Source of the DNA: a bacterium
GTDB lineage: Bacteria > Actinomycetota > Acidimicrobiia > Acidimicrobiales > CATQHL01
Length of the DNA stretch: 43,440 nt
Direction of reading: 5' to 3'
Assembly: GCA_026708055.1 (NCBI GenBank)
Contig: JAPOVS010000057.1
Span: 1 to 43,440, forward strand
The position numbers were made by a program, and so were the translations under genes. Below are positions 36,165-43,361 of the stretch, piece by piece (the stretch's first letter is position 1; each line of letters begins with the position of its first letter). Under the pieces are notes generated by a model. That model searched no databases and had not been told where the DNA came from. It saw nothing but the letters and a program-made list of their open reading frames with translations.

Positions 36165-36962
36165 CTACCAGAAGAACGCTCCCCCGTTCGCGTCGAAGGC
36201 CTGTCCCACGGAATAGTCGGCATCCGCGGAGGCCAGGAAGGCGACCATCTTCGCCACGTCGTCGGGCGTCTGGTATCGCCCGACGGGGATCAGGTCGAGC
36301 ACCCGCCGGCGCACGTCCTCGTACGTCTCACCGGTGTCGGCGGCGACGTCTCGGTGTATGGCGCGCAGCATGTCCGTGTCCACGATGCCGGGGAACACGG
36401 CGTTCATGAGAATGCCGTGCGGGGCGATCTCCTGACCCATCTGCTTGATGAGCCCCATGGCGGCGTGCTTGCTGGCCACGTAGGAGGCGACATAGGTGTC
36501 ACGGAACGACGGGAGAACGCCGGCTGTGGAGACGATGGTGATGATCCTGCCCCCGTGGCCCTGGTCGATCATCTGATGCGCGGCGGCCTGCGAGCAGAAC
36601 AGCACCCCCTTGGTGTTGACCGCGAAATGGCGATCCCAGTCGTCCTCGGTGATGTCAATGGCCGGAGCGGTGCTCAGCACACCGGAGTTGTTGACCATGA
36701 CGTCCAGAGAGCCGAAGGCCGCGACCGTCCGCTCGACCATCCGATCCACCTGCGACCTGTCGGTGACGTCGGTCGTCACGGAGATCGCCCGGCCGCCACC
36801 GTCCCGGATCTCGGCGGCCACCGCCTCCCCGGCGGCGGCGTCGATGTCGGCCACCGCCACCGCCGCGCCCTCCGCTGCGAGACGGTGTGCGATCCCGCGG
36901 CCGATGTTGCGGCCGCCACCGGTCACGATGGCGCCCTTGCCGTCCAGTTCGTAGCTGGGCAT
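36165..36962 (-). CDS. Short-chain dehydrogenase/reductase (SDR2)
   Basis: The 265-residue SDR has the glycine motif TGGGRNIGRG, VADID after the second strand (NAD preference), NNSG, a catalytic Ser in IVSTAG, a Tyr/Lys pair within SYVASKHA, and NAVFPGIVDTDML. It is distinct from SDR1. The ATG at 36962 lacks a clear ribosome binding site. It is the last gene of the long minus-strand catabolic run that begins at the system 2 binding protein, 88 bases downstream of the cupin gene with repeat copy f in the gap. The substrate is unknown. Confidence 0.9.
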   Translation of the reverse strand: MPSYELDGKGAIVTGGGRNIGRGIAHRLAAEGAAVAVADIDAAAGEAVAAEIRDGGGRAISVTTDVTDRSQVDRMVERTVAAFGSLDVMVNNSGVLSTAPAIDITEDDWDRHFAVNTKGVLFCSQAAAHQMIDQGHGGRIITIVSTAGVLPSFRDTYVASYVASKHAAMGLIKQMGQEIAPHGILMNAVFPGIVDTDMLRAIHRDVAADTGETYEDVRRRVLDLIPVGRYQTPDDVAKMVAFLASADADYSVGQAFDANGGAFFW

Positions 36963-37017
36963 TGCTAGAAGTGTGCCGGGTCGTCCGTCGGGGGCTCGGA
37001 TCGGGCCACTGGACGGC

Positions 37018-37043
37018 GGGTTCCGGCCTTCGCCGGACTGACG
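37018..37043 (+). repeat. Dispersed palindromic repeat, copy f
   Basis: This slightly diverged copy (left end GGGTTCC, right end GGACTGACG) lies between the cupin and SDR2 genes. Confidence 0.75.
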
Positions 37044-37050
37044 AGTGGGC

Positions 37051-37479
37051 TCAGCCGAGGTGCCAGCCTGTTGTGCCGTCCACCTCGACCCAGTCCCCGA
37101 CCTCCTCCTTGATGTCGGCCAAGTCGGTCGACCACTCGCCGGCGATCAGCCAGAAGATGTGCAGCATCTCGTCGCCCGTGTAGAAGGTGTGCTCGGTGCC
37201 CGCGGGGCAATAGACCGTGTCCCCCGGTTCGACATCGATGAGTTCGCCGTCGGCGTAGTACTGGGCGTGTCCCGAGATGATGTAGAACGCCTCGTCCTGG
37301 TCGTGCACGTCCACGTGGCCCTCGGTGTTGCCGGGTGCGAGCCACACCTGACCTGCGGAGATCTTGGTGCCCGGGCCGAACGTCTCGTCGGTGATCTGGA
37401 AGACGTCACGGAACTTGCCGTTCGCCATCTCCAGCATCGGGACATCGGTCACCTTCATGACCAGATTCTGCTTTGACAT
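37051..37479 (-). CDS. Cupin-domain protein
   Basis: The 142-residue single-domain cupin has metal-ligand motif 1 as EGHVDVHDQDEAFYIISG, with His and Glu ligands, and motif 2 as PGDTVYCPAGTEHTF, with the last His. Both motifs are intact, so a metal-dependent isomerase, dioxygenase or lyase acting on a small sugar- or acid-like ligand is possible; a sensor role cannot be excluded. The ATG at 37479 follows a good GGAGG at 7 bases. It belongs to the minus-strand run between the transketolase remnant and SDR2. Confidence 0.85.
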   Translation of the reverse strand: MSKQNLVMKVTDVPMLEMANGKFRDVFQITDETFGPGTKISAGQVWLAPGNTEGHVDVHDQDEAFYIISGHAQYYADGELIDVEPGDTVYCPAGTEHTFYTGDEMLHIFWLIAGEWSTDLADIKEEVGDWVEVDGTTGWHLG

Positions 37480-42087: not shown

Positions 42088-42198
42088 GGATTCCCTCAGG
42101 AGAAGCCGATCACTGGCTTGACTACGCGCGCGACCGAGTCACCTGCCGGCAGACGGCCATCAGTCCGATGGGCGTGCGATCAACGATCTCCCGCACGA

Positions 42199-43329
42199 CT
42201 AGCACGCAGACTCCGGATAGAAGTCCCCGAGGTTCTCGGCGCTCAGCACCTCGGTGGGCAGCTCGATGAAGCCCGGCAGATCGGCGCCGTGGATCAACCC
42301 GATCAGTGCAGGTATGGCGTACTTGCCGTAGTTCTCGGGGAAGTACGCGACGCTCGCGTAGAGACTGCCCTCGCAGATCGCCTCGAGCTGGCTTGCGCCC
42401 TGGCCGACGGACACCATGTCGTCGTCGCTGCGACCGGCCGTGCGGAGCGCCTCGAGCATCCCCAGCGTCAGTTCGTCGTTGACCGAGGCGACGAGGATCT
42501 TGGCACCCTCCGGGATCCTGGCCACGATGGCCGCGGTGTTGGCGTTGGCGGTCGGCGGGTCGGCGGCTGTGGCGATGAGGATGACCTCGGCGTCGGGAAC
42601 GGCCGCCGTGACGCCTTCCACGATCCCGTCGGTCAGGTCGATCGTCGTCTGCCCTGCCTCGTCGAAGGTGCCGACGATGAGGACGATCTCCTCGCCCGAC
42701 CAGCGCTCGACCGCCTGCGCGCCGAGCGTCTGACCCGACTTCAAGCCGGCGTTGCCCAGGTCGACCTCGATAAGGGCGATGTCCGGCGCGGGCACGAAGA
42801 TCGCCAGCCCCGGGAGGTCGTTGCTCTGGAGGACGTCGACGATGCCGGGCTGCGCAGCCTCGATCACGTTGGCGATGATGACGCCGTCCTTGCCCTGCTC
42901 GGCGAAGATCCTCACGTTCTCGACGGCCGTGAGCGGGTCGGCGTTGTCGGAGACGACGTCGATGCTCACACAGCCCATCTCGTCGGCCACGGCCTGGAAG
43001 CCCTCGACGGTGAGGAGCGCGAACGACTCGGTGTCGGAGAAGATGTCGAATCCGAAGTCGTAGGTCTCACCTGCGCATTGATCCGGGCTCGGGCTGCCCA
43101 GGAACTGCTCATAGTCGGGTGCCGCCGCCGGCTCGGGCGGGGGCGCCGGTGCCGGCTCGGGCGGAGGTGCCGGCGCCGGCTCGGGCGGGGGCGCGGGAGC
43201 GGGCTCGGGCGGAGGCGCCGGGGCGGCGTCGCCGCTGTCATCGCCGGCGCAGGCGGCCATGACGAGCGCCAGCGCGACACCCAACGAGATCAGGACGCGG
43301 AACTTTGACTTGGCGGAATTCATTGCCAT
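42199..43329 (-). CDS. Sugar-type ABC transporter substrate-binding lipoprotein (system 2)
   Basis: The 376-residue protein has a signal peptide with lipobox MAAC (Cys27), a low-complexity linker of four PAPPPEPA octapeptides (37-68), and a ribose-type periplasmic binding domain. That domain includes FDIFSDTESFALLTVEGFQAVADEMGC, DGVIIANVIEAAQPGIVDVLQ and VASVNDELTLGMLEAL. It is the first gene of the minus-strand run that continues through permease, ATPase, ABM, SMP-30, VOC, ferredoxin and cupin. The ATG at 43329 follows AGGAGAGGGG. A 20-base palindrome just upstream suggests repression. The ligand is unknown. Confidence 0.9.
   Translation of the reverse strand: MAMNSAKSKFRVLISLGVALALVMAACAGDDSGDAAPAPPPEPAPAPPPEPAPAPPPEPAPAPPPEPAAAPDYEQFLGSPSPDQCAGETYDFGFDIFSDTESFALLTVEGFQAVADEMGCVSIDVVSDNADPLTAVENVRIFAEQGKDGVIIANVIEAAQPGIVDVLQSNDLPGLAIFVPAPDIALIEVDLGNAGLKSGQTLGAQAVERWSGEEIVLIVGTFDEAGQTTIDLTDGIVEGVTAAVPDAEVILIATAADPPTANANTAAIVARIPEGAKILVASVNDELTLGMLEALRTAGRSDDDMVSVGQGASQLEAICEGSLYASVAYFPENYGKYAIPALIGLIHGADLPGFIELPTEVLSAENLGDFYPESAC
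43126..43221 (-). repeat. Four 24-base tandem repeats encoding the lipoprotein linker
   Basis: Four units of 24 bases, differing at a few third positions, encode the PAPPPEPA octapeptide in the system 2 binding protein. The in-frame unit allows copy number, and therefore linker length, to vary by slippage without disrupting the protein. Confidence 0.85.
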
Positions 43330-43341
43330 TTCCCCTCTCCT

Positions 43342-43361
43342 GTTCGACGAGTTCGTCGAAC
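43342..43361. promoter_or_regulatory. Candidate operator of the system 2 catabolic operon
   Basis: GTTCGACGA-GT-TCGTCGAAC is a perfect 9-bp inverted repeat with a 2-base centre, 12 bases upstream of the binding-protein ATG. An adjoining GAACGTTC palindrome overlaps its upstream end. A TAGGGT -10-like box (43377-43382, minus strand) would put the operator just downstream of the transcription start, a repressing position. LacI-, GntR- or TetR-type regulators bind such sites; none is encoded in the window. Confidence 0.55.

Follow-up and report, generated by a model that had tools for sequence, protein, structure and literature searches.

A candidate catabolic gene cluster with a ribose-type importer, an SMP-30-like lactonase and a truncated split transketolase in a member of the Acidimicrobiales

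Ribose-type (CUT2) importers usually have a fused double ATPase of about 500 amino acids, with FrcA-type members as exceptions. FrcABC-like importers of this group are found beside sugar-oxidation genes, and the locus described here has in common with them a Peripla_BP_4 binding protein, a BPD_transp_2 permease and an ABC_tran ATPase of single-domain length near dehydrogenases. A ribose-type importer, SDRs and a split transketolase occur together in rhizobial plasmid loci (e.g. NC_015184), as they do in the present cluster. The split transketolase of Carboxydothermus hydrogenoformans (PDB ID: 6yaj) is a two-gene system. The sulfo-transketolase pathway for sulfoquinovose needs a sulfosugar transketolase and sulfonate-specific partners. 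Finally, P450 demethylation of 6-O-methyl-galactose is known from marine bacteria (PMC10033563), and the present locus is like that of the porphyran users in having a P450 and a ferredoxin beside sugar-type genes.

Gene content and extent of the run

The window, i.e. the whole stretch of 43,440 nucleotides that was analysed, is an entire contig (C57) of a 3.9-Mb assembly that is 96% complete. On its minus strand, a run of ten ORFs lies between 36165 and 43329 (Table 1), nine of which are intact and one of which is the tail of a split transketolase. The initial annotation had described ten minus-strand genes; the ORFs, their coordinates and families are as stated there, whereas the ORF 37553-37981 is not an intact gene. 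The short gaps and overlaps also ascribed to the run are in part present, with two junctions at which neighbouring genes of the strand share 4 bp, but gaps of 111, 68, 73 and 88 bp occur as well. The importer ATPase and permease genes overlap by 4 bp. A dispersed REP-like palindrome, TCCGGCGAAGGCCGGAA, has five copies in the window against 0.3 expected (4120-4136, 20072-20088, 28840-28856, 36083-36099 and 37021-37037), the last of which sits in the 88-bp gap between the cupin and SDR2 genes. Searches for promoter and terminator signals returned none above chance, and no RNA family or tRNA was found.

Table 1. Features of the run and of the genes next to it, with coordinates in the window
Feature	Coordinates	Strand	Evidence or remark
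Substrate-binding lipoprotein, ribose-type importer (Peripla_BP_4)	42199..43329	-	Pfam E 9.6e-17; 93-97% identity in L001/L003
Importer permease (BPD_transp_2)	41062..42087	-	Pfam PF02653
Importer ATPase, one nucleotide-binding domain, 263 aa, FrcA-like length	40274..41065	-	PF00005
ABM-domain protein (LsrG-like, weak)	39915..40205	-	PF03992 E 2.2e-19; NCBIfam LsrG isomerase match weak, below cut-off
SMP-30/gluconolactonase-like lactonase	38938..39885	-	PF08450 E 1.6e-48; PDB gluconolactonases 3e5z, 3dr2
VOC/glyoxalase-fold protein, epimerase-like	38447..38941	-	PF13669; methylmalonyl-CoA epimerase match weak, under cut-off
Small ferredoxin, P450-partner type (CX5C...CP), [3Fe-4S]-type	38192..38446	-	PF13370 E 4.2e-10
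Transketolase subunit a remnant, ~70 genuine residues followed by a frameshifted tail up to a stop	37959..38195	-	
Transketolase subunit b remnant, Transketolase_C domain only (ORF 37553-37981)	37553..37990	-	PF02780 E 2.9e-26
Single-domain cupin, usual His/His/Glu/His set intact (H55, H59, E63, H97)	37051..37479	-	PF07883 E 3.9e-14; alignment
SDR dehydrogenase 2 (SDR2)	36165..36962	-	PF00106/PF13561; top NCBIfam scores acetoin/polyol dehydrogenases, not specific
SDR dehydrogenase 1 (SDR1), divergent neighbour	35275..36030	+	Kept in L001 and L004
FG-GAP/UnbV-ASPIC repeat protein	33354..35039	-	Family from L001 orthologue; 86-94% identity
Cytochrome P450 (P450a), CYP107-like by PDB neighbours	32092..33312	-	
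LLM-type luciferase-like oxidoreductase	31049..32041	+	PF00296 E 2.7e-41
Ldh_2 dehydrogenase and a further ribose-type importer (SBP2, ATPase, permease), part of the same accessory block	26362..31044		

The importer was assigned to the CUT2/ribose type from a binding protein (PF13407), a permease (PF02653) and an ATPase (PF00005) within one run. Because the ATPase comprises 263 amino acids with a single nucleotide-binding domain instead of a fused double one, it is FrcA-like rather than RbsA-like. The predicted SMP-30 protein has an SGL domain with the metal-binding E/N/N/D residues and contains EGP, NSPND, PNG and GDG motifs. NCBIfam gave none of the ten ORFs an equivalog-level name above cut-off. 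AlphaFold models, built from three to four near-identical sequences, reached a pLDDT of 41 for the binding protein and 54 for the cupin and were too poor for a fold search. Lsr/AI-2 uptake was considered and rejected, as only the ABM protein matches an Lsr protein (LsrG, weakly) and LsrK was not seen in the run.

The P450, LLM oxidoreductase and second importer proposed to adjoin the run were confirmed in family and position. A second P450 gene (P450b), which follows P450a in the related locus L001, is missing in the window; its best match in the window's own genome is P450a, at 47%. At least ten P450 genes are present in the assembly.

The binding-protein gene had been taken for the leader of the operon. 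However, the 3' end of another contig of the assembly, C58 (5,038 bp), is identical to the 55 bases that start the reverse complement of the window, and this overlap adds four genes on the same strand (Gfo/Idh/MocA, SDR, SDR-like and Gfo/Idh/MocA), which are orthologues of four L001 genes. In L001, the gene preceding the binding-protein gene ends 84 bp away from it. From the overlap, the shared strand and the L001 spacing, the binding-protein gene is probably internal and probably not the operon leader. In C58 (4785-5038), tandem GGCGTCATYCCGGCG units, together with 18 consecutive Gs beside the break between the contigs, widen the interval ahead of the binding-protein gene. The G tract and the short tandem repeats lie beside the overlap and may be why the contigs were left unjoined. 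The operator-like palindrome assigned to this gene is present just upstream of it, as an exact 9-bp inverted repeat (GTTCGACGA-AC-TCGTCGAAC, 43342..43361). The full sequence TTCGACGANNTCGTCGAA has its sole perfect copy in the assembly here, with two one-mismatch sites and none for the reversed control, and L001 and L003 have it nearly intact in the corresponding position. We infer that it is an operator or a leader hairpin, and, being conserved, it could mark a second promoter or operator before the binding-protein gene.

A 1,226-bp deletion in the split transketolase pair of the assembly

At the same place in L001, an intact pair of genes encodes transketolase subunits of 280 (TKa) and 318 (TKb) amino acids, and L004 has an equivalent pair. 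The C-terminal subunit of L001 is similar to the C-terminal chain of the Carboxydothermus enzyme (E 3e-89). Intact N-terminal TPP-binding and C-terminal subunits are thus found in L001 and L004 but not in the window, where the ORF 37553-37981 holds Transketolase_C without the TPP-binding and pyrimidine domains. This remnant is 97% identical to the TKb tail of L001. About 70 residues at the start of the TKa frame are transketolase, after which the frame is shifted and closes with a stop at 37959. DNA alignment with both L001 and L004 revealed one clean gap of 1,226 bp at 37990/37991, and the missing sequence corresponds to L001 11643-12868 and L004 9920-11145. The missing piece is present nowhere else in the assembly, which contains only short, weak matches to it. 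In L002 the same pair carries a different, in-frame deletion.

As the genome is a metagenome-assembled one, and as two such assemblies (window and L002) carry deletions in the same gene pair, the gap might be an assembly error in an organism that holds the intact pair. This is unlikely, since there is no repeat at the window junction that could mislead an assembler, no other contig of the 96% complete assembly contains the missing sequence, the window and L002 deletions have different ends, and clean deletions are seen in other genomes too (ferredoxin in L001, P450b in L004). The deletion probably ended the C2-transfer step in the window strain. The loss looks recent, because the subunit b remnant, with a dN/dS of about 0.1, has kept the same level of conservation as the genes around it. 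Contig C54 has a separate full-length transketolase-like gene (757-aa frame), so that the lost pair is not necessarily required for central metabolism.

Linkage and gene loss among relatives

The initial annotation had named absent linkage in relatives as a finding that would speak against a common operon. The outcome is mixed: the genes are linked in up to four congeneric genomes, and conserved linkage, although leaky, is observed inside the genus but is not found outside it. The whole block is continuous in L001 (genome G297), with the order PanE-like, AMP-ligase, Gfo/Idh/MocA, SDR, SDR-like, Gfo/Idh/MocA, importer, ABM, SMP-30, VOC, TKa, TKb, cupin and SDR2, and continues with SDR1, FG-GAP/UnbV, P450a, P450b, LLM and importer 2. 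Among the genomes with the locus, SMP-30 and VOC are together in five of five, and ABM, transketolase (intact or remnant), cupin and SDR2 keep their order in four of five. Chance clustering was rejected on account of this retained linkage. All retained genes tested had dN/dS values of 0.02-0.29, with one exception, the ferredoxin in the comparison with L004 (0.41); the retained genes are under purifying selection.

Individual genes have been lost in the relatives. In L001, the ferredoxin gene is cleanly absent (about 255 bp, at 11475-11478) between VOC and transketolase, and both P450s are kept. In L004, the importer is missing from between Gfo/Idh/MocA and ABM, and P450b (16918-17817) has lost about 110 internal residues in frame, among them the I-helix region, so that the protein is likely dead. 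L003 is without ABM and without about 12 kb, from the ferredoxin through Ldh_2. Immediately after VOC, at this 12-kb gap (11430-11480), a short stretch resembles the end of a Gfo/Idh/MocA gene (GAACTCGACTGGTCGGGTTAG) and is perhaps a recombination scar. In genome G298, a long contig bears the TPR gene that adjoins the block elsewhere and serves as its anchor (window 25564-26205), but no part of the block lies beside it. With the importer lacking in L004 and everything past VOC in L003, no single fixed pathway is common to all.

This leads to the question whether the locus is a loose set of accessory oxidoreductases in a hot spot of gene flux, serving several unrelated small pathways. The independent losses (importer in L004, ferredoxin in L001, ABM and 12 kb in L003, P450b in the window), the absence of the entire block in G298 and the genes on both strands from 26362 to 36030 all point that way. 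We regard it as a somewhat unlikely explanation, given the constant pairing of SMP-30 with VOC, the order kept by the other four genes and the two junctions with 4-bp same-strand overlaps.

SMP-30 relatives at E<=1e-40 were found in 2 of 296 class genomes and in 5 of 9 family genomes; the three genus members without SMP-30 are at most 83% complete. Cupin relatives at 1e-20 were found in 1 of 296 class genomes; the rest of the class sample yielded no strong homologue, and there was one weak plasmid match. Homologues of SMP-30 with 48-63% identity in Planctomycetota, Latescibacterota and Acidobacteriota have no linked partners and therefore give no help with the substrate. The names of the relatives' assemblies suggest marine sponge samples.

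Proposed pathway and comparison with known systems

The fitting families, the congeneric linkage and the purifying selection support the original proposal of a catabolic cluster that has an importer of its own. With middling confidence, we regard the locus as an accessory, genus-restricted island that would oxidatively degrade an imported compound resembling a sugar or cyclitol, with P450/ferredoxin chemistry close by. The families, the continuous L001 block, the low dN/dS, the identity of the split transketolase, its adjacency to an SDR elsewhere in the class, the rhizobial loci and the absence of the block beside the G298 anchor support it. The main ground for a sugar-like substrate is the association of split transketolases with sugars and polyols. 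Against this reading stand the absence of a sugar kinase, isomerase and aldolase from the run itself, and SMP-30, SDR, VOC, ABM and cupin homologues that are too broad to fix a substrate.

We infer the following order of reactions. The ribose-type importer would bring the compound in, and the NAD-dependent Gfo/Idh/MocA dehydrogenases (C58) or the SDRs (window) would oxidise it. The SMP-30 protein could then hydrolyse a lactone; the lactone opening suggested earlier is plausible by this route, while ring opening gains no specific support and aromatic ring cleavage was rejected, as a ring-cleaving dioxygenase is absent. The small ABM, VOC and cupin proteins may isomerise or epimerise intermediates, and the linked P450 and [3Fe-4S]-type ferredoxin probably remove or hydroxylate a side group. 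As the final transfer, the ancestral split transketolase would have moved a C2 unit to central metabolism. Since the pair is cut in the window strain, the pathway there may end earlier, use another enzyme or be decaying.

Alternatively, the P450 and ferredoxin could be the core, with the island demethylating an O-methylated sugar and the ancestral transketolase handling the released formaldehyde or the sugar skeleton. It would fit that a sugar-type importer and dehydrogenases are linked to a ferredoxin of the P450 type and to a P450, of which L001 has two copies, and there is a precedent for a P450 that demethylates methyl-galactose (PMC10033563). Yet the P450 is closest in the PDB to CYP107/PikC/vitamin D-hydroxylase types, L001 keeps both P450s though its ferredoxin is lost, and neither a ferredoxin reductase nor a formaldehyde enzyme is seen in the block, which makes demethylation quite unlikely. 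Very unlikely, and the most speculative extension of the island reading, is a genus-specific, undescribed route in which a single imported sugar derivative from a host or alga is processed by a P450/ferredoxin step, SMP-30 lactone opening and the split transketolase, and lineages, possibly sponge symbionts, repeatedly lose the transketolase, so that they carry out only a partial oxidation and the carbon skeleton is left to others.

If correct, the island reading frames the question of the substrate in this uncultured bacterial lineage in bounded and testable terms. The locus also illustrates how pathway reconstruction from a single metagenome contig can mislead, as the contig end cut the run and an enzyme pair was internally deleted.

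Compared with CUT2 importers, the importer of the run scores far under every substrate-specific NCBIfam cut-off, and the similarity of its binding protein to structurally characterised sugar-binding proteins is only distant. The rhizobial plasmid loci differ in possessing an FGGY kinase and a regulator and in lacking SMP-30, ABM, VOC, cupin and P450, and their split transketolase has an identity of about 41-43%. The C-terminal subunit of the Carboxydothermus system is homologous over its length to that of L001; in the window, by contrast, both subunits are truncated. In relation to the porphyran users, the window P450 is nearest to CYP107-like enzymes, and the block is without a visible ferredoxin reductase or galactose genes. 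For the sulfo-transketolase pathway, the transketolase pair is broken in the window. Within the class, a split transketolase adjoins an SDR in all 13 other loci inspected (12 genomes). The TKa-TKb-SDR module is conserved in many Acidimicrobiia (L060-L072); in L070 its neighbours are a C_GCAxxG redox protein, a cupin, a metallo-beta-lactamase-fold protein, two MFS transporters and a PHP protein. Searches of the literature for this set of genes gave nothing relevant. No close published match was found for the cluster as a whole, but, as the modules in the class and on rhizobial plasmids indicate, each of its parts is of a known kind.
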